This document shows, piece by piece, positions 77 through 10,619 of a stretch of DNA of 64,000 nt. Position 1 is the first letter of the stretch. Each line of letters begins with the position of its first letter. The DNA lies in the NCBI RefSeq assembly GCF_030848495.1, contig NZ_JAVDDT010000001.1, positions 496,001 to 560,000 on the forward strand. Direction: 5' to 3'. This stretch comes from Natronospira bacteriovora. GTDB lineage: Bacteria > Pseudomonadota > Gammaproteobacteria > Natronospirales > Natronospiraceae. Under the pieces are notes generated by a model. It saw only the letters and a program-made list of their open reading frames with translations, was not told the DNA's origin and made no database searches. The translations under genes and the position numbers were made by a program.

Positions 77-2101
77 TCAGGGCGAAACCAGATGCAGGCG
101 ATTGCGCCGGACAAAGGCTTCCAGATCCTCGGCGGGTAGGGCGGCGCTGAAATGAAAACCCTGGAAGAGATCGCAGCCCAGACCGTGCAATATCTGCCAT
201 TGCCACTCTGATTCCACGCCCTCCGCTGTCGTCCTCAGATCAAGGGCATGAGCCAGGCCGATGATGCTTTCCACCACGGCCTGTCCCTGCGCCTCGCTCA
301 TTTCAGCAATGAAGGAACGGTCAATCTTCAGGCGGTGAACCGGAAACTGTCGCAGCCAGCTGAGAGAACTGTAGCCGGTGCCAAAGTCATCCAGCGACAG
401 GCCCACGCCAAGCGAGCGCAGGCGCCCCAGACTGGCATGTCCGGTCTCGGTATCGTCCATGGCGACCTGTTCGGTCAGTTCCAGCTGGACCAGCTCCGCG
501 GGTGCCCCGCTGCGACGAAGGATTCGCTCGACCCGCGCCGGCAACTCCGGTTGCTCGAACAACTGTGCCGACAGGTTGACCGCGATCCCGAGTGACAGAC
601 CCCGCTTCTTCCACGCCGCCAGTTGACGACAGGCCTGTTCCAGAACCCAGTAATCCAGTTGCGGGCTAAGACCCATGGTGGTGACCAGAGGCAGAAACTG
701 CTCCGGCGTCAGCAAGCCCCGTTCCGGGTGTTGCCAGCGAACCAGGGCTTCGACACTCGCCACCCGACCTTCCCGATCCATGATCGGCTGGTAGTGGACG
801 AGCAGTTCGTCCTGACTCAGTGCCCGCCGCAACTCGGCTTCCATGATGAGACGCTCGCTGGCGTCGGACTCCATGCCGGGCTGGTACCTCAAAAGCAGTT
901 CCCCCTTGCGCTGACGTGCCCGGGAATGGGCCAGATCGGCCGAGCGCACCAGTACCTGCTCCCCTCGTCCGTCATCGGGAAACAAGGCAAAGCCGCAGGA
1001 ATAGCTGAGATGAATATCCTGCCCGTGAACCCGGATGGGTTCGCGAATCCCTTCCATGAGGTAGGTCAGATGGCTGCGCGCTTCCTCCTCGCCGCGCAGC
1101 TCCGGCAGTATGAAGGCGAACTCGTCCGCCCCCACCCGGGCGACCGTTCCGCCTTCCGGCAGGCGGGTCAGAAGGCGCCTGGCCAGTATCCTCAGCACTT
1201 CGTCGCCGCTGGCATGCCCCATGGAGTCGTTGAGGCGACGAAAGCGCTCCACATCAGCAAAGGCGAAGGCCAGCTTGAGATCCGTGTCCCGAAGGGTACG
1301 AATCGCACGCTGCAGTCGGGTCTCCAGGTTCCGGCGGTTGGGCAATTCGGTGAGCGGGTCATAGAAATTCAGCCGGGAGGCTTCGCTGCGGGCCGTGCTG
1401 GCCACTTGCTGCTCCTGCTGCAACAGCCAGATCACCAGACCGAGACCGATGAGGGCGTAGAACAGCAGGTCCACGAGGGGCAGGTAGGCCAGATAGGGAA
1501 TGGCCAGATGAAATCCGACCACCAGAATCTGCGCCAGCAGGCCGTGCATCAGATGCAGACCGTAAATGAACATGACAATGGCCAGGAAACCGGCGCCGGA
1601 GCTGAGCTCGCGGGTGCTGTGCCGCCAGATTACCCAGGCGGCCAGCAGAAAGACCGCCCCCAGCATCACGTGCCGCATGCCCACGCGCACGAACAATCTC
1701 AGCTCGGCCGCCCCGGGGTCGAAGGCACCGATCAGGACGCTGGAGGCGCCAAGCAGCGCCACCATGGCCACGAGAACGATGAGCCGGCGTGGAATCACTC
1801 GCCGCCCGATGCTCAGTGCCACCACACCGGCCAGCAGAAGTGCGGCCTGGGCGTAGAGACTGGCCATGGAGACTGCCGACACCAGGGTGCGCGGCCCCGT
1901 GCTCACGTCGAGAGCAAGCAGCACCAGCACCAGCGCCGCCGAGAAGACGTGCATCGCCATGGCAACGAAGCTCAGACCCCAGTGAACCAGGTAGGCGTGG
2001 CGATAATCGCGATAAAAACGGAAGAAGAATGCAGAAAGAACCAGGGCAAGAATACCCTGCGCAGCATAGACCGCTGTCACCATCTCAATCTGCGGATTCA
2101 C
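77..2101 (-). CDS. Membrane GGDEF-EAL protein, probable c-di-GMP phosphodiesterase
   Basis: About 674 residues. The N-terminal third (about residues 8-230) is a run of hydrophobic segments, seven or so by eye, so the sensor part is an integral membrane domain that I cannot assign to a named family. A GGDEF domain follows, but its signature reads GADEF (about 324-328) and no RxxD inhibitory site precedes it, so cyclase activity is doubtful. The EAL domain keeps its key motifs: EAL (about 451-453), ELTE, DDFGTG, LKIDRSF and AEGVE. The net activity is therefore probably c-di-GMP hydrolysis, with the GGDEF half possibly a GTP sensor. I chose the GTG at 2101 because a G-rich ribosome site (caggggg) lies just before it; an ATG at 2083 is the alternative. 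It is divergent from the S9 peptidase gene. Confidence 0.85.
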   Translation of the reverse strand: MNPQIEMVTAVYAAQGILALVLSAFFFRFYRDYRHAYLVHWGLSFVAMAMHVFSAALVLVLLALDVSTGPRTLVSAVSMASLYAQAALLLAGVVALSIGRRVIPRRLIVLVAMVALLGASSVLIGAFDPGAAELRLFVRVGMRHVMLGAVFLLAAWVIWRHSTRELSSGAGFLAIVMFIYGLHLMHGLLAQILVVGFHLAIPYLAYLPLVDLLFYALIGLGLVIWLLQQEQQVASTARSEASRLNFYDPLTELPNRRNLETRLQRAIRTLRDTDLKLAFAFADVERFRRLNDSMGHASGDEVLRILARRLLTRLPEGGTVARVGADEFAFILPELRGEEEARSHLTYLMEGIREPIRVHGQDIHLSYSCGFALFPDDGRGEQVLVRSADLAHSRARQRKGELLLRYQPGMESDASERLIMEAELRRALSQDELLVHYQPIMDREGRVASVEALVRWQHPERGLLTPEQFLPLVTTMGLSPQLDYWVLEQACRQLAAWKKRGLSLGIAVNLSAQLFEQPELPARVERILRRSGAPAELVQLELTEQVAMDDTETGHASLGRLRSLGVGLSLDDFGTGYSSLSWLRQFPVHRLKIDRSFIAEMSEAQGQAVVESIIGLAHALDLRTTAEGVESEWQWQILHGLGCDLFQGFHFSAALPAEDLEAFVRRNRLHLVSP

Positions 2102-2313
2102 GGATACCCCCTGACAACGGCGCCGGGGCCGTTCCCCTGAAGATAGCAATCCGCAGCCAGGGATGCACCTCTGCCGCCAATCCGGCAGGCCGGTGCCCTT
2201 ACGCTGGCGTTCCCGGGCCGCCTTCCCTATCCTGTAGCCCCCCGGGCCGTCGGCCGCCCGGCTCGTCAATCGATAGGGAATCCCGTCAAAACGCCGATTT
2301 GGGAGCGTGAACA

Positions 2314-4341
2314 ATGAATTTGAGACGAAATATCATCTGCCTGCTGGCCCTGGCTCTGACCGTGGGCGCCCAGGCCGTGATGGCCAAGGGAATGGAACTG
2401 GACGACCTGTATCGAATTCAGCAGGTCACTCAGGTGGCCATCTCACCTGATGGCGAACATGTCGCCTACCTGAAACAGGTTCAGCGCAACCCCTATGAAG
2501 ACGAGAACGGACCGGCGTGGAGTGAGCTGCATGTGGCCCGGGGCGCCGATGACAGCCGCGCATTCATCACCGGCAAGGTCAACATTTCAGCCATCGACTG
2601 GCTGCCTGACGGTTCGGCCATTTCCTTCCTCGCCCGGCGGGACGGAGATGACAGCCGTGCCCTGTACACCATCCCCCTGGATGGCGGTGAAGCCCGCCGT
2701 GTCTATCAGCACGACAGCGGAATCCGCAGCTACAGCTGGCACCCGGACGGCAAGCGTTTCGCTTTCCTGGGCACCGAACCACGCAGCGAACAACGTCGCA
2801 GCCTGGATGAGCGGGGCTTCAATGCCGTGGTGCACGAGGAAGGCCTGAACCCGGTGCGTGTGTGGATTGGCGAACGGGACAGCGGGAATGACGCGGAAAT
2901 GCTGGATCTGGACGGCTCTGCCTCCGAACTGCACTGGAGCCCGGAGGGTGACCGTCTGGCCATGATGATCGCCCCTACCCCGCTGATCGATGACCACATG
3001 ATGGCGCGCAAGCCCCAGGTCGTTGATGCAGAGAACGGCGATGTTCTGGTCTCCTTCCAGACCGAAGGGAAACTGGGCTCCCTGGCCTGGTCCCCGGATG
3101 GCCGGCACCTGGCCTGGGTTGGCTCGGCCGATCTGCACGATCCCCGAGAAGGGCGCCTTGTGGTCGGCAATGTCTCCAGCGGTGAAATCCGCACCATTCG
3201 GGGCGAAAGCTACCTGGGGCATGTCCAGTCCATGGACTGGCTGGACGAAGACACCCTCGTCTGGCTGGGCCACCGAGGCACCTGGAGTGAACTGGAGCGG
3301 GTCGGTATCGACGGCCGCGGCCGGGAAGTGCTGATCGGTCGGGAACAGCCCATCCTGCGCAACATGAGCCTGGCGGCCAACGGTGAAACCCTGGCCTTCG
3401 CAGCCGACCGCCCTGAACATCCGCGCGAGCTGCATGTCCTGAAGAACGGTGAGCTCAAGCGCTGGACGGATTCCAACCCCTGGCTCGCGGAGCGGGAGCT
3501 GGCCAGACAGGAGGTGGTCACCCACGAAGCCCGGGATGGCCTGGATCTGGAAGGGATTCTCATCCGTCCCCTGCAAGAAAACCGTCGCGGTGGCCATCCC
3601 CTGATCATGGTCATCCATGGCGGTCCGGAAGCGCACATCTCCAATGGCTGGAACACGAACTATTCCAACCCGGGGCAGGTTGCGGCCGCCAGGGGTTATG
3701 CCGTCTTTTACCCCAACTACCGGGGCAGCACCGCCCGGGGCGTTGAATTCAGCAAGCTGGGCCAGGCCGATGCGGCCGGTGCCGAATTCGATGACATTGT
3801 CGATGCGAAAGAACACCTGGTGGAAACCGGCCTGGTGAACAGTGACAAGGTGGGCATCACCGGCGGTTCCTACGGTGGCTACGCCTCAGCCTGGGGCGCC
3901 ACGGCACAGACCGAGCATTTCGCCGCCAGCGTGATGTTCGTCGGCATCAGCAACACCATCTCAAAGTTTGGTACCTCCGATATTCCCCAGGAGCTGATGC
4001 TGGTGCATTCCCGCAAGTGGCCCTGGGATGACTGGCAGTTCGCCCTGGAGCGCAGCCCGATCTACCATGCCGAGAAATCCCGAACCCCCATTCTCATCAT
4101 GCATGGCGAAGCGGACACCCGGGTTCACGTGAGTCAGTCCATGGAGCTGTTCCGCACCCTGAAGGTGCAGGGGAATACCCCGGTTCGAATGGTCACCTTC
4201 CCGGGCGAGGGTCACGGCAACCGCAATGCCACCAGCCAGCGGGATTACGCCATGCGCCTGATGCGCTGGATGGATCATTTCATTCGGGACGGGGCCGACA
4301 CTCTGCCGGCGCCCGAGCTGAATCACGGCGACCGGCTCTGA
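2314..4341 (+). CDS. Secreted S9 family prolyl-oligopeptidase-type serine peptidase
   Basis: 675 residues with an N-terminal signal peptide (about 1-24, ending AVMA), so it is exported, probably to the periplasm. Residues about 30-400 hold repeated SPDG-type blades typical of the WD40/PD40 beta-propeller that gates access in S9 enzymes. The C-terminal part is an alpha/beta hydrolase: HGGP oxyanion motif at 435-438, nucleophile Ser519 in GGSYGG, Asp601 in HGEAD and His634 in GEGHG. This is the acylaminoacyl-peptidase/dipeptidyl-peptidase branch, which releases amino acids or dipeptides from oligopeptides; the exact specificity cannot be read from sequence. The ATG is preceded by ggga g at good spacing. 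It stands alone between divergent GGDEF-EAL and downstream small genes, and fits a protein-scavenging lifestyle. Confidence 0.93.
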   Translation: MNLRRNIICLLALALTVGAQAVMAKGMELDDLYRIQQVTQVAISPDGEHVAYLKQVQRNPYEDENGPAWSELHVARGADDSRAFITGKVNISAIDWLPDGSAISFLARRDGDDSRALYTIPLDGGEARRVYQHDSGIRSYSWHPDGKRFAFLGTEPRSEQRRSLDERGFNAVVHEEGLNPVRVWIGERDSGNDAEMLDLDGSASELHWSPEGDRLAMMIAPTPLIDDHMMARKPQVVDAENGDVLVSFQTEGKLGSLAWSPDGRHLAWVGSADLHDPREGRLVVGNVSSGEIRTIRGESYLGHVQSMDWLDEDTLVWLGHRGTWSELERVGIDGRGREVLIGREQPILRNMSLAANGETLAFAADRPEHPRELHVLKNGELKRWTDSNPWLAERELARQEVVTHEARDGLDLEGILIRPLQENRRGGHPLIMVIHGGPEAHISNGWNTNYSNPGQVAAARGYAVFYPNYRGSTARGVEFSKLGQADAAGAEFDDIVDAKEHLVETGLVNSDKVGITGGSYGGYASAWGATAQTEHFAASVMFVGISNTISKFGTSDIPQELMLVHSRKWPWDDWQFALERSPIYHAEKSRTPILIMHGEADTRVHVSQSMELFRTLKVQGNTPVRMVTFPGEGHGNRNATSQRDYAMRLMRWMDHFIRDGADTLPAPELNHGDRL

Positions 4342-4682: not shown

Positions 4683-7265
4683 TCAGGGAAGGGGCTTGCC
4701 GTTGCGAAGGAGCTTGATCACGTCGTCGGCGCGACGCGGGCGACTGAAGAAATAACCCTGCGCTTCATCGCAGCCGATAGCGGCCAGCAGATCCCGCTGG
4801 GCCGCGGTCTCCACGCCTTCAGCAATCACTTTCAGGTTGAGATTGTGCGCCATGGCCACGATGGCACGGACGATCGCCAGTGCGTCTTCGTCCTCCGGCA
4901 GACCCATGACGAAACTGCGGTCAATCTTGAGAAAATGAATGGGGAAATCCTTGAGATAACTCAGGGAGCTGTGACCGGTTCCGAAATCGTCCACGGCGAT
5001 GTCGATGCCCATCTCGGCCACTTCCCGAAGGGTAGTCAACGCCCGTTTCGGGTTCTCCATCATCATGCTTTCGGTGATCTCCAGATGGAGGTCGGCCGCC
5101 ACCATGCCGCTTTTTGCGATCACCTCCGATAGTTCCGCCACCAGGCGACGACGATTGAATTGTCGCGCCGAGACATTCACCGCCACTCTCAGGGGTGGCA
5201 GCCCCATGCTCCGCCATTCGGCCGCCTGACGACAGGCTTCGGAAAAGACCCACTGCCCCAGCTCCCCGATGAGGCCATTTCGCTCGGCCAGGGGCACGAA
5301 GGCCGACGGCGGAATCAGTCCCTGCTCCGGATGCACCCAGCGAACCAGCGCTTCCACCCCGGTAATGCGGTAATCCTGGAGACTGACCGAGGGCTGATAA
5401 TGCAGCACGAACTGTCGCTCATTGAGCGCGTCACGAAGGGCCTTGGACATCAACAGTTCTTCATAGGCCCGCGCATTCATGTCAGCGGCAAAGAACTGAT
5501 AGCTGTTGCGCCCCTTCTCCTTGGCGCGGTACATGGCGGTGTCGGCATTGCGCAGCAGTGTGGCCGGACTGTCGCCATCCTGGGGATAGCAGCTGACACC
5601 GATGCTGCAGGAGGTGATCAGCTCATGGCCGGAGACCTCGATGGGCTCTGCCAGGGAAGCGAGGATCTTGCCGGCGATGCCGGCCAGATCATCCGGACCC
5701 TCGATATCCTCCACCAGCACGGCAAACTCGTCCCCCCCGAATCGAGCCACAATGTCACTGCTGCGAAGCAGGTGGGCGAGTCGCTCGGCAACGGCGACGA
5801 TGAGGCGATCACCAACCGGATGGCCAAGCGAATCATTGACCATCTTGAACTGATCCAGATCGAGAAAGAGTATGCCGGCAAAATCACCGCGGCGACTGGC
5901 CCGGGCAATGGCGTGCTGGCACTCTTCCTCGAAACGCGCCCGGTTCGGCAAGCCCGTCAGGGCATCGTGATGGGCCAGGTACTCCAGGCGTTTCTCGTAT
6001 TCCTTGTTCTGGGTGATGTCATTGAAGATGCAGACGTAGTGCGTGAGCTCCCCTTCCGCATCCTTGACCGTACTCAGACTCAGTAATTCCGGGTAGGCTT
6101 CTCCGCACTTGCGCCGGTTCCAGACCTCACCCTGCCAGTGACCATCCGCCTTTAGGGCATTCCAGACAGCATCACCAAGCGGCTCGCCGTTGGATTCCAC
6201 CGAGCGCAATGGCATGGGACGACCCAGCACTTCCTGGCGGGAATAGCCGGTGATGCGCGTGAAGGCCTTGTTCACCGACACCACCTTGCGATCCTGGTCC
6301 AGGATCATGACCCCTTCCGCCGTGTTCTCCAGCGCGGCGGCGGCGAGACGATACTGATTTTCTGCTCGGCGCTGGTCGGTGACATCCCGGTAAATGCCGT
6401 ACACACCGATCTGGTCTTCATCGATGTGTATGGGCGCCCCGAGTATGGACACCTCCACAAGGCTGCCGTCCTTTCGGCGACGGACCGAATCGGACTGTAT
6501 GGACTCGCTTGAAAGGACACGTTCGGACAAATGCCGGCCCTCTTCGCCGGCCGAAGCTGGAACGATCAGCTCATTGATCTCGTGACCCAGAACTTCTTTT
6601 GCCTGATAGCCGAAGAGCTCGAGCCAGGCGCGGTTGGCGCGAAGTATGCGATCCTTCCGATCCAGAAGCACGATGCCCTCGGGCGAAGCATCGAACAATT
6701 GCTTGAAGAAGGAGCGTTGGTCCTCGAGTGCCTTCTCGGTACGCCGCAGTGCTGCCAGATCCCGCGCCAACTCATCATTGGCATGCGCCAGCTTTTCGTT
6801 CTGCTGAACCAGACGCTCTTCGAGACTGCTGGCCTTCTTCTGTAGGCTGTCCTGGGTTGCCTTCTCGTGGCTGATATCCCGCACGGTGGCTCGCAGCAGC
6901 GGCCCATCACTGAAATCCAGCCGGGTGATAATGACTTCACAGGGAAAGGGGGTTCCGTCGGCACGACAGTGAGTCCACTCGAAGCGGATGTAGCCCTCAT
7001 TGAGCGCCTGGCGAATGTGCCGTGAAGCAACATCCCGCGAGGATTGGCCACCCGGCTGCTTCGGCGGAGATAGCTCGCTGGGATGGAGACCGATGAGTTC
7101 TTCCCGGTCGTGGTAGCCAAACAGTCGGGCAGCCGCCGGCGTCGATGCCACGACCTGATTGGATGCCAGCACCAGGACGGCATAGCTGGACGCCTCGAAC
7201 AAGGCGCGGTAAAGCTTTTCATCGCTCGGCAATTGCCGGGCCACTGTAGTGCGAGGCTTTGACAT
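4683..7265 (-). CDS. PAS-PAS-PAS-GGDEF-EAL dual c-di-GMP protein
   Basis: About 860 residues, cytosolic: no signal peptide or membrane segment. In order: PAS (about 15-135), a coiled coil (about 140-183), PAS (about 185-300), PAS (about 303-425), GGDEF and EAL. The GGDEF motif is intact (510-514) and is preceded by RSSD at 501-504, the spacing of the product-inhibition I-site. The EAL domain carries EAL (638-640), EITE, VDDFGTG, LKIDRSF and AEGVE. Both halves therefore look catalytically competent, making this the only protein of the local three with a plausible active cyclase. The three PAS domains suggest redox, gas or ligand input, which the sequence does not specify. I preferred the ATG at 7265, preceded by aggt, over an upstream one at 7301. 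Confidence 0.9.
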   Translation of the reverse strand: MSKPRTTVARQLPSDEKLYRALFEASSYAVLVLASNQVVASTPAAARLFGYHDREELIGLHPSELSPPKQPGGQSSRDVASRHIRQALNEGYIRFEWTHCRADGTPFPCEVIITRLDFSDGPLLRATVRDISHEKATQDSLQKKASSLEERLVQQNEKLAHANDELARDLAALRRTEKALEDQRSFFKQLFDASPEGIVLLDRKDRILRANRAWLELFGYQAKEVLGHEINELIVPASAGEEGRHLSERVLSSESIQSDSVRRRKDGSLVEVSILGAPIHIDEDQIGVYGIYRDVTDQRRAENQYRLAAAALENTAEGVMILDQDRKVVSVNKAFTRITGYSRQEVLGRPMPLRSVESNGEPLGDAVWNALKADGHWQGEVWNRRKCGEAYPELLSLSTVKDAEGELTHYVCIFNDITQNKEYEKRLEYLAHHDALTGLPNRARFEEECQHAIARASRRGDFAGILFLDLDQFKMVNDSLGHPVGDRLIVAVAERLAHLLRSSDIVARFGGDEFAVLVEDIEGPDDLAGIAGKILASLAEPIEVSGHELITSCSIGVSCYPQDGDSPATLLRNADTAMYRAKEKGRNSYQFFAADMNARAYEELLMSKALRDALNERQFVLHYQPSVSLQDYRITGVEALVRWVHPEQGLIPPSAFVPLAERNGLIGELGQWVFSEACRQAAEWRSMGLPPLRVAVNVSARQFNRRRLVAELSEVIAKSGMVAADLHLEITESMMMENPKRALTTLREVAEMGIDIAVDDFGTGHSSLSYLKDFPIHFLKIDRSFVMGLPEDEDALAIVRAIVAMAHNLNLKVIAEGVETAAQRDLLAAIGCDEAQGYFFSRPRRADDVIKLLRNGKPLP

Positions 7266-7282
7266 ATACCTGCAGTATAGAG

Positions 7283-7314
7283 GAATCCTGCCGGGCGCCA
7301 ACAGCCCGGGATTC
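7283..7314. other. Intergenic hairpin between binding-protein and PAS-GGDEF-EAL genes
   Basis: GAATC plus CCGGGC pair with GCCCGG plus GATTC across a seven-base loop with a small bulge. It lies directly after the stop of the binding-protein gene on the minus strand. No clear T-run follows on that strand, so it may be a weak or Rho-assisted terminator, or an mRNA-stabilising hairpin. Confidence 0.4.
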
Positions 7315-7321
7315 TTCCCTT

Positions 7322-8239
7322 TCAGTCCCCGACCTCGTGGTGGCGAAAAACCGGCTCAAACCAGAGTTCGGCGACATCCAATGGCGTCTCCTCAGGAAGA
7401 TCCGGGTTATTCAGCCAGATGATGGGGCGAGGGTTGGCAAAAAACCGCTCGATGGCTTCACGGTTGGCGGGGTGGGTCTCGAAGCGATGCCGGAACTCGC
7501 CACTTTCGATCAAGCGATTCAGGCCGTATTCCAGACGCTCGGCCAGGGCACTATTGTCCGCGGCAACGAAAAAGTAGATGGGCGCGGTATAGGCAAGCAG
7601 GAAGTGATCGGCGATCACGAGGTCATGACGTTGGTACATGGAGCGCTCCCCCCAGACCTCGGCCACCGAGCGGGGAATGTAATCGATCCTTCCGCGAACC
7701 AGCATTCTGAACAAGCCTTCGTAACTGGAGGCGGTTTCCACGCGAATGCCATTGGCGCGAAGGATGGCCGTATCCGGCCAGTCATGACCCTGCCCGGGGA
7801 TCAGTTCACTCAGGGTCTCGAGGGTGTCGACCCCCTCCAGTCTGGCGGCCTGGCCGGCCGGGACCACCGCGGCTCGAACCCCGAGCAACCCCCGAAGCAG
7901 AGGGATGCGAACCGGCCGAAGCTCGGTTTCCCGATCAGTGCTGGTCATGGTCCAGATGACATGGACATACTCATCCCGACCCATTTCATGCATGGCCCGG
8001 CTTTGAGTCATCTGTACCGGTGCTTCCACCAGACGGTAGGGCCCGAAGGTTTCCGAACTGGCCGCCAGAGCCGCGTCCAGCAGTTCCAGAAAATAGTCGC
8101 TGCGCTGATCCTCACCCACATCCGGGCGGATGTGGCCCACCTCCAGGACTTCCGCCACGGCCAGGGCTGGCTTCAAGGCCAGCATGAAGAACAGGACGGC
8201 CAGAACCGACTGTCGCCTACCCCAGTTGGACATGGTCAT
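7322..8239 (-). CDS. Periplasmic type-2 solute-binding-like protein coupled to a GGDEF-EAL sensor
   Basis: 305 residues with a signal peptide (about 1-30, hydrophobic core then ALAVAEV). The mature part resembles the SBP_bac_3/type-2 periplasmic binding fold: an N-terminal lobe around residues 33-110, a GLLGVRAAVV crossover strand, then a second lobe with ILRANGIRVETASSYEG and a C-terminal helical region (FVAADNSALAERLEYGLNRLI). No ABC permease or ATPase gene is nearby. Instead the gene overlaps the 3' end of the membrane GGDEF-EAL gene by about 23 bases, so the two are translated together. The likely role is to bind a ligand and pass the signal to that partner, as NspS does for MbaA in Vibrio; the ligand is unknown. 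GTG at 8242 is an alternative start. Confidence 0.8.
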   Translation of the reverse strand: MTMSNWGRRQSVLAVLFFMLALKPALAVAEVLEVGHIRPDVGEDQRSDYFLELLDAALAASSETFGPYRLVEAPVQMTQSRAMHEMGRDEYVHVIWTMTSTDRETELRPVRIPLLRGLLGVRAAVVPAGQAARLEGVDTLETLSELIPGQGHDWPDTAILRANGIRVETASSYEGLFRMLVRGRIDYIPRSVAEVWGERSMYQRHDLVIADHFLLAYTAPIYFFVAADNSALAERLEYGLNRLIESGEFRHRFETHPANREAIERFFANPRPIIWLNNPDLPEETPLDVAELWFEPVFRHHEVGD

Positions 8240-10619
8240 CACGACTTTCCAGATAGACCCTCAAATCAGCCAGTGGCATGGGTCGGGCCAGGAGATAGCC
8301 CTGGGCCATCTCACAACCCAGTGCCTTGAGATAGTCCAGCTGCTGTTTCTCTTCCACGCCCTCGGCCACCACCTGAATCTGCAGGTCGTGGGCAAGGGAG
8401 ACGATGGCCCGGGTCAACAGGGCGTCGTCTTCATCCCTGTCGATGTCCCGGACAAACTCCCGATCCACTTTCAGGGCATGCACGTTCAGTCGACGCAGAT
8501 AACTCAGGGCAGAATACCCGGTGCCGAAATCGTCGATGACCAGATTCACCCCCCGGCTTGCCAGATCCGCCAACAGTCGACGGGTGTGGATGTATTCCTC
8601 AAGGAAAAGACGTTCAGTCAGCTCGAGCTGCAGGGCCGACCCCGGCAGGCCGCTGGCCCGCAGCTCGCGCTCGACCATCCCCATGAAATCCTCCTCCAGC
8701 AGCTGCCTGGACGAGATATTCACGGCCATGTGCAGCCCGGCCATGCCCTCCATGCGGCGGAGGGTGGCCAGATCCTCCAGAGCGGTGGCAAGGACCCACT
8801 CGCCGATGGGGACAATCAGGCCGTTTTCTTCCGACAGGGCAATGAACTCCTCGGGAGACACCAGGCCCCGCTCCGGATGATCCCAGCGGATGAGAGCTTC
8901 CAGGCCCACCACCTGGCCACTGTCCAGTGCGATGATGGGTTGATAGTGCAAGGCGAACTGTCCCAGCGCCAGCGCCTGGCGCAAGTCGCTCTCAAGCGTC
9001 AGCCGATGCTGGGTTTCCCGCCCCAGCTCCGCCTGGTAGAAACGCAGGGTATTCTTGTGTGCCTTCTTGGCGGCATACAGCGCCGTATCCGCGGCCTGGA
9101 GCAGTTCCCGAGCCGTGCCACCCACCTGCGAGGAAAGCGCCACCCCGGCGGTAGCCGAGAGATAGAAGGTCTCCCCCTCCAGTGCCAGGGGTTCACGCAA
9201 TTCAGCCAGTACCCCTTCAAGTCGCCGGGACAGCACCACGGCTTCGGCGGCCCGCGGGATCACAATCAGAAACTCATCACTGCCAAAGCGGGCCAGCACC
9301 CATTCCGGATCACACAATCGCCGAAGCCGGTTGGCCACGGCGGTCAGCACCCGATCTCCGATTTCATGCCCGAGGCTGTCATTGATGTACTTGAAATTGT
9401 CGATGTCCAGGAAGACCAGCGCGGTGGTATGGCCGTCGTCACTGCCCCCTATTTCACGGCTCAGGTGCTCATAGGCCAGAACCCGGTTGGGCAGCTCGGT
9501 GAGGGTGTCGAAATGGGTATGAAAGTCCAGACGCTCCTGGACGGTGCGCAGCTGGGTAGTGTCTTCGATGAGGGCAATGAAATAGGGCCGCCCACCGTCA
9601 CTGACGGCCTTGAGGGAAGTCCAGGCCCAGCGATAGTGACCGTCTTCGCGGCGGAAGCGGATTTCACCCTGCCAGCTCCCGCCATCCTTCATGGCCTGCC
9701 AGGGATCACCGGCTTCTGGCGGCACACTGACGCGGCGGCGAAGACAGCCCCCTTCCTCGAACGCCGGCTGACCGATCAGTTGCTCCGGGCTGCAGGCACT
9801 GAACTCGAGAAAACGCGGGTTGGCGTATTCCACCACACCATCCCCCTTGATGATCAGCACGCCTGCCGGTGACTGCTCCAGTGCCCGGGCCAGCAGATCA
9901 CGCTCCCGCTCGACAACTTCCCGCGTCTCCACATCCCGCCGGATACGTTCAACTGCGTGGCCAAAGGCATGGCTCACGGCGTCAAGCTCATCCGGCCGCA
10001 ACCAGCCCCTTGCCGGGCGCTCCAGTCGCGGCTGGATGTTCAGGCGGTTGAGGCGCAGACGCTTGGCAAACGTGGCCAGCGACTGCAGATGGCGAGTGAC
10101 CATGAGATAGAAGGCAGACAGTATGAGCACGGACACGGAGAATGTCTTGAGCCCCTGGGCCACCAGGATCAAAAGGGCACGATCCCAGACGGCCGCGTGG
10201 ATGCCTTCCAGATCGGCAACCACATGCACCTCTCCCAGTGCATGCGTCCGCCCGTCCACACCCGTGTGACGAATGGGAAAGCGGTGATCGATGCGATAGG
10301 GATAATCACGGCTGTCACCGACGGAAAGCAGCAGATCACCTTCCACCCGGATCTGGTGCACATGAGGCAGCTGAAGAATCCCCTGAAGCTGGAGCAGCAC
10401 CTGCTCTTCATCCAGGGCCCACACACTGCGTCCGAGGCTTTCCGCGAAGGTGTACTCCGCCTGTTCCAGACTGCTTTCCAGCCCGGTCACATCCCGACGG
10501 TACTCACTGTAAAGCTGGTAGGCGGTGATCAGCAGCGTGAATACCGAACTGATCAGCAGGATGACCAGCACCACACGCAGGCTGAGTCGACGGTGGCGCA
10601 GCCACCGAGGCAGGCTCAT
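8217..10619 (-). CDS. Membrane sensor PAS-GGDEF-EAL protein, partner of periplasmic binding protein
   Basis: About 800 residues. A membrane segment (about 13-35), a periplasmic domain of about 120 residues, a second membrane segment (about 160-177) and a HAMP-like linker are followed by a PAS domain (about 245-365), GGDEF and EAL. The GGDEF signature is altered to GSDEF (446-450) and lacks a clean RxxD I-site. The EAL domain is intact: EAL (574-576), ELTE, IDDFGTG, LKVDREF and AEGVE. I infer a net phosphodiesterase whose output is set by the periplasmic domain and the coupled binding protein encoded just downstream. The ATG at 10619 follows gagaag; a GTG at 10628 is possible. A run of eight C (G on the coding strand) lies about 40 bases upstream of the start. 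Confidence 0.88.
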   Translation of the reverse strand: MSLPRWLRHRRLSLRVVLVILLISSVFTLLITAYQLYSEYRRDVTGLESSLEQAEYTFAESLGRSVWALDEEQVLLQLQGILQLPHVHQIRVEGDLLLSVGDSRDYPYRIDHRFPIRHTGVDGRTHALGEVHVVADLEGIHAAVWDRALLILVAQGLKTFSVSVLILSAFYLMVTRHLQSLATFAKRLRLNRLNIQPRLERPARGWLRPDELDAVSHAFGHAVERIRRDVETREVVERERDLLARALEQSPAGVLIIKGDGVVEYANPRFLEFSACSPEQLIGQPAFEEGGCLRRRVSVPPEAGDPWQAMKDGGSWQGEIRFRREDGHYRWAWTSLKAVSDGGRPYFIALIEDTTQLRTVQERLDFHTHFDTLTELPNRVLAYEHLSREIGGSDDGHTTALVFLDIDNFKYINDSLGHEIGDRVLTAVANRLRRLCDPEWVLARFGSDEFLIVIPRAAEAVVLSRRLEGVLAELREPLALEGETFYLSATAGVALSSQVGGTARELLQAADTALYAAKKAHKNTLRFYQAELGRETQHRLTLESDLRQALALGQFALHYQPIIALDSGQVVGLEALIRWDHPERGLVSPEEFIALSEENGLIVPIGEWVLATALEDLATLRRMEGMAGLHMAVNISSRQLLEEDFMGMVERELRASGLPGSALQLELTERLFLEEYIHTRRLLADLASRGVNLVIDDFGTGYSALSYLRRLNVHALKVDREFVRDIDRDEDDALLTRAIVSLAHDLQIQVVAEGVEEKQQLDYLKALGCEMAQGYLLARPMPLADLRVYLESRDDHVQLG

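Follow-up and report, generated by a model that had tools for sequence, protein, structure and literature searches.

Gene layout at the locus

The window, a 64,000-nucleotide stretch of the Natronospira bacteriovora genome, carries on its minus strand two overlapping genes, one for a membrane receptor and one for a secreted type-2 solute-binding protein (SBP). The receptor gene (10619-8217, 800 amino acids) starts at ATG 10619 in the ORF list, with an alternative start at GTG 10628. The SBP gene (8239-7322) starts at ATG 8239, with GTG 8242 as the alternative, and just before this ATG, inside the receptor gene, lies a ribosome-binding-site-like GGAAAG. The 3' end of the receptor gene and the 5' end of the SBP gene share positions 8217..8239 of the minus strand, an overlap of 23 bp, or of 26 bp if translation starts at the GTG, in agreement with the first-pass annotation, which had placed the two ORFs at the same positions with an overlap of about 23 bases. 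A larger plus-strand ORF (7259-8329) shadows the SBP gene; the minus-strand frame is the right one because related proteins occur in many species.

The third gene of the presumed operon (4683..7265, minus strand) encodes a soluble 3xPAS-GGDEF-EAL protein with intact GGDEF and EAL domains; its start is TTG 7301 in the ORF list, and ATG 7265 is likelier. This gene is kept across the genus, and three Natronospira species, whose SBPs are 52-53% identical, have both it and the overlapping receptor-SBP order. Since that order recurs in these three species and in more distant genera, the overlap is more than chance. The SBP and the receptor gene are each single-copy in a scan of the 3.0-Mb genome. 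No ABC transporter gene was seen by eye in the ORF list, either in the operon or adjoining it, as had been claimed from the first reading. A further GGDEF-EAL gene lies a few kb downstream of the pair (77-2314, minus strand), and counting it, three GGDEF-EAL genes occupy one strand within ~11 kb.

The receptor consists of a first transmembrane helix (TM1), a periplasmic CHASE5 domain (~residues 39-141), a second transmembrane helix (TM2), a HAMP-like linker, and PAS, GGDEF and EAL domains. Pfam matched the last three, which had been recognized at first reading, and also CHASE5 (PF17149, 51.4 bits against a 27-bit cutoff), which had been missed; it occupies ~105 residues between the transmembrane helices.

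Predicted folds of the binding protein and the CHASE5 domain

The window SBP belongs to an unnamed family marked by the motif QGHDWPDT, with W154, D156, P189 and R190 among its invariant residues. Profile searches gave no Pfam or NCBIfam match for it, and against PF00497 (SBP family 3) the Pfam cut-off was not reached; 20 of 78 relatives match PF00497 at E<=0.01 (best 4.3e-5). Its N-terminus, an RR n-region and a hydrophobic helix followed by ALA, fits a signal peptide by eye. An AlphaFold model built with 78 sequences (pLDDT 93.7) has the type-2 SBP fold, which agrees with the earlier description of a type-2 binding protein with a signal peptide. The structure matches of this model were filled by opine and amino-acid SBPs, including 2o1m (Z 17.5 over 214 residues) and the LAO protein 6mkx (Z 17.3), and the VFT2 domain of BvgS (3mpk) matched with Z 15.6. 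Kinship with PotD or NspS was considered and rejected, given the lack of any Pfam spermidine/putrescine SBP match at E<=0.1 and the amino-acid SBPs as nearest structures; the initial impression that the protein is not PotD-like was correct. PotD is missing from the structure-match lists shown, an absence that alone proves nothing.

A search of GTDB genomes with the single SBP returned nothing, as the family is divergent, and a five-row alignment returned 362 relatives. Eighty of these, many from metagenome bins, were taken for locus analysis. They are mainly gamma- and betaproteobacterial, the nearest including Natronospira; one locus each bears the label Synergistota, KSB1, Planctomycetota, Rhodothermota or Thermodesulfobacteriota. 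In one of them, from Aliagarivorans taiwanensis (L059:6004-6939), the SBP gene is split in two ORFs and is probably a pseudogene or a sequencing error. The binding pocket was compared by reading the alignment. Of 78 members, 76 keep Arg103, which stands in a T-x-x-x-R context like that of the Arg with which amino-acid SBPs bind carboxylate, and position 191, by motif reading the amine-binding Asp of amino-acid SBPs, is Ser, Gly or Ala in this family. The kept Arg103 and the lack of Asp at 191 suggest that the ligand is a carboxylate other than a plain amino acid, as far as can be inferred from an alignment.

The AlphaFold model of CHASE5 has a confident core (pLDDT ~95) and long flanking helices, and its topology is a long first helix and then a short one, a sheet of four strands, and a helix that leads into TM2. 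As modelled, CHASE5 is a PAS/Cache-like single domain. WalK and CdgS9, an ortholog of LapD, are among the solved domains that it matches best (Z ~9).

Conserved pairing of binding proteins with CHASE5 receptors

The genomic survey for conserved pairing that the first-pass annotation had proposed showed the SBP gene overlapping or touching a CHASE5 receptor gene at 15/80 loci of relatives, and PF17149 matched every coupled receptor tested (16/16, window included). In the SBP tree the window protein falls in an eight-member clade (SH-aLRT 99) that is wholly coupled to CHASE5-GGDEF-EAL receptors (8/8). Overlaps are mostly 8-26 bp where a GGDEF-EAL receptor lies upstream of the SBP; where a GGDEF or histidine-kinase receptor follows the SBP, they are mostly 28 bp, with a single case of 4 bp. 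The CHASE5 partners of the family differ in output, being GGDEF-EAL, GGDEF-only or histidine-kinase proteins, and one SBP clade of six members has as its partner a CHASE5 clade, likewise of six, in which histidine-kinase and GGDEF outputs are mixed. The direct evidence is genomic, and on this evidence the pair is real and conserved. Neither of the refuting conditions named at first reading held: the two genes are co-conserved, and homologous binding proteins are not always paired with ABC permeases. An ABC partner for the SBP was sought and rejected, since in none of the 80 loci does an ABC gene adjoin it; ABC ATPase-like ORFs occur elsewhere in 5/80. Family members also stand beside other sensors, namely MASE1-GGDEF (L088), dCache-GGDEF (L080) and hybrid kinases (L050). 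One run (L022:5131-11237) brings together the genes for a hybrid histidine kinase and a response-regulator-PAS-GGDEF-EAL protein with two tandem SBP genes of the window's family, which overlap by 11 bp; this is possibly a two-SBP version of the pathway acting through a phosphorelay.

The CHASE5 domains themselves were placed in a tree of 59 domains, from which seven long-branch rows (L044, L172, L177, L179, L182, L183 and L185) were left out. All 16 CHASE5 domains coupled to the window's SBP family formed one clade (93/91) despite their three output types, requiring one label change against 14.2 in shuffles. With the excluded rows counted, 16/17 SBP-coupled domains belong to this clade; the exception is a Synergistetes pair (L044), outside the CHASE5 clade in the first tree, where, as in L048, a CHASE5-like cyclase lies upstream of the SBP. 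The sister of the coupled clade (92/95) is a pair of receptors without an adjacent SBP (L159, L162), and each of their genomes (G156, G226) has an unlinked SBP of the window's family, whereas none is present in the seven remaining genomes whose CHASE5 genes lack an adjacent SBP (Fisher p 0.028, in a small sample; SBP presence was not built into the tree).

Beyond what the first reading saw, CHASE5 receptors in general tend to adjoin SBP genes. PF17149 is present in 42/369 gammaproteobacterial genomes, and 35 of the 49 CHASE5 genes outside Natronospira adjoin an SBP gene, as recognized by a leave-one-out profile. Of 39 neighbours scanned, 21 matched Pfam SBP_bac_3, and three further SBP families were each named once; the common CHASE5-adjacent SBPs are related to the window's family in a profile comparison (probability 97.5, E 6e-12, 16% identity). 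As controls, dCache_1 receptors had SBPs as about 3/30 upstream neighbours (sequence reading and pooled Pfam counts), and CHASE8 receptors had their known partner YfiR upstream at 14/30 loci. The rule is weaker phylum-wide: an SBP was adjacent in 12 of the 29 top-scoring CHASE5 loci by profile in either orientation, and in up to 17 by eye. Vibrio-like CHASE5 proteins (~800 aa) were considered as MbaA and rejected, since they have a histidine-kinase motif and lie beside a divergent SBP gene. At L292, L293 and L294, ~800-aa CHASE5 histidine kinases, from genomes of one family (f185), are transcribed divergently from a 252-aa SBP-like gene. At L295:3139-6038, the gene for a 359-aa binding protein (type-1-like by eye) overlaps that of a weak CHASE5-GGDEF cyclase by 4 bp. 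Pairing with CHASE5-like domains may thus extend to other classes of SBP.

Overlapping genes kept together across many bacteria suggest that CHASE5 listens to binding proteins rather than tasting chemicals itself. An alternative is that CHASE5 senses its own ligand directly, the SBP being a co-regulated scavenger or the uptake partner of a distant transporter, and the overlap a result of operon compaction. The modelled PAS/Cache-like fold is compatible with direct sensing as well as with docking; it lends this alternative some weight in that Cache domains often bind ligands directly. So do the many orphans, 56/78 SBP-family members in the tree (~70%) having no coupled signalling gene, and the many receptors without an adjacent SBP, especially beyond the gammaproteobacterial sample. 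Also counting against a single signalling unit, co-occurrence of SBP and CHASE5 is weak (p about 0.1) once the own genus is dropped. Against direct sensing, no ABC gene adjoins the SBP at any surveyed locus, and compaction does not predict the correspondence between an SBP family and a CHASE5 clade across outputs and gene orders. We regard direct sensing as unlikely.

Adjacency is not proof, and the two genes might be mere neighbours with no direct functional link. A published negative points the same way: the Pseudomonas aeruginosa SBP PA4985, whose gene lies in the vicinity of that for the CHASE5 kinase AruS but does not adjoin it, failed to bind this kinase in two-hybrid (PMC11113362), a result that counts against SBP-CHASE5 docking. 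That the overlap recurs in more than one gene order and with several types of output is hard to reconcile with an accidental neighbourhood, to which we give hardly any credence. On balance we lean towards a reading in which CHASE5 is mostly an SBP docking domain. SBP and CHASE5 would then form a portable module carried by phosphodiesterases, cyclases and kinases, and different SBP families would correspond to different CHASE5 clades.

Receptor output, proposed mechanism and known systems

The GGDEF motif of the window receptor is degenerate (GSDEF), and every EAL catalytic motif checked is present. The window's clade is similar: nearly every member has the EAL motifs searched for, and most have an altered GGDEF motif, which is GSDEF in Natronospira and unrecognizable in several others. 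With EAL motifs intact and GGDEF mostly altered, phosphodiesterase activity is the likelier output of the clade, and judging from its motifs the window receptor is likelier a c-di-GMP phosphodiesterase, with a GSDEF domain that is probably regulatory. The motif of MbaA is SGDEF, yet c-di-GMP synthesis was inferred for it in vivo (PMC8079147), so cyclase activity of the window receptor is conceivable as well. The GGDEF-only partners in Dyella and Oleiagrimonas have an intact GGEEF, so the same kind of SBP probably drives opposite c-di-GMP outputs in different lineages.

We put at roughly three in four the probability that the pair is one signalling unit in which the SBP docks on CHASE5 and sets c-di-GMP hydrolysis. 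The SBP would capture a small solute, probably carboxylate-bearing, in the periplasm, and in one of its states, loaded or empty, would dock onto CHASE5 in the receptor dimer. The change of conformation would reach the intact EAL domain by way of TM2, the HAMP-like linker and PAS, and there set the phosphodiesterase activity. The observed basis is the overlapping pairing, the family-specific CHASE5 clade, the swapping of outputs, both folds and the EAL motifs; from it we infer the docking, the direction of the response, the ligand class and the enzymatic direction. The first-pass suggestion of a different ligand-to-c-di-GMP pathway stood in part: a route from a non-PotD SBP to c-di-GMP is well supported by the pairing and the absence of ABC genes.

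Signalling could also run inside out, as in LapD, with the cytoplasmic c-di-GMP state determining whether CHASE5 retains the periplasmic SBP or lets it go. The second Foldseek match to the CHASE5 model is 4u64, the periplasmic output domain of a LapD ortholog (Z 9.1), and LapD does bind a periplasmic protein, its partner being a protease. WalK and Cache domains match the model equally well, however, and the SBP family is also paired with histidine kinases and intact cyclases. Moreover, the GGDEF and EAL domains of LapD are catalytically dead, its EAL being degenerate, whereas the EAL motifs are intact here. We consider inside-out signalling very improbable, and prefer control of the receptor by the SBP.

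SBP-driven receptors are an accepted mechanism (PMC9602780). Few c-di-GMP examples of them are characterized. In a search largely confined to open-access papers, we found none that proposes CHASE5-SBP coupling, and CHASE5 came up in a relevant way only as the sensor domain of AruS (PMC11113362). NspS appears nowhere in the main text of a 2022 census of c-di-GMP sensing, and none of the CHASE passages retrieved from that article concerns CHASE5 (PMC8846402). If CHASE5 is indeed an SBP docking domain, many receptors without a known signal would gain a named partner, ligand screening could target the neighbouring SBP, and one SBP/CHASE5 module leading to opposite c-di-GMP outputs or to phosphorylation would be available as a natural system.

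In its logic the window pair comes closest to NspS-MbaA, the polyamine-sensing system of Vibrio cholerae and Sinorhizobium meliloti. Both pairs have overlapping genes and an orphan SBP without its own transporter, and both receptors are membrane GGDEF-EAL proteins with an altered GGDEF motif. The periplasmic region of MbaA (residues 24-256 in S. meliloti; PMC9993111) is far longer than the window CHASE5. NspS is PotD-like, whereas the window SBP resembles amino-acid SBPs, and nspS lies upstream of mbaA, whereas the SBP lies downstream of the receptor in the window and its clade. NspS/MbaA, named at first reading as the closest described logic, is accordingly a fair functional analogue that differs in SBP family, periplasmic domain and gene order.

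ScrB-ScrC of Vibrio parahaemolyticus, a periplasmic SBP-like protein and a GGDEF-EAL membrane protein encoded in one operon, resembles the window pair by its general description; that operon also holds the signal-synthesis gene scrA. CdgH, RmcA and BvgS use the same SBP fold as a sensor fused to the receptor, whereas the window SBP is a separate diffusible protein; the V. cholerae tandem SBP structure 5gzs, which we take to be CdgH, is among the matches of the SBP model. YfiR-YfiN is similar in that a small periplasmic protein is encoded beside a c-di-GMP receptor with a CHASE-type domain. YfiR, however, is a DUF4154 protein and not an SBP, and CHASE8 is a Pfam family separate from CHASE5; profile searches gave no CHASE8 match in this genome and no DUF4154 match to the window SBP. 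At four loci with CHASE8 receptors lacking YfiR (L204, L208, L212 and L213), SBP-like upstream genes, of the phosphonate-binding or ABC_sub_bind type by eye, stand in YfiR's place.
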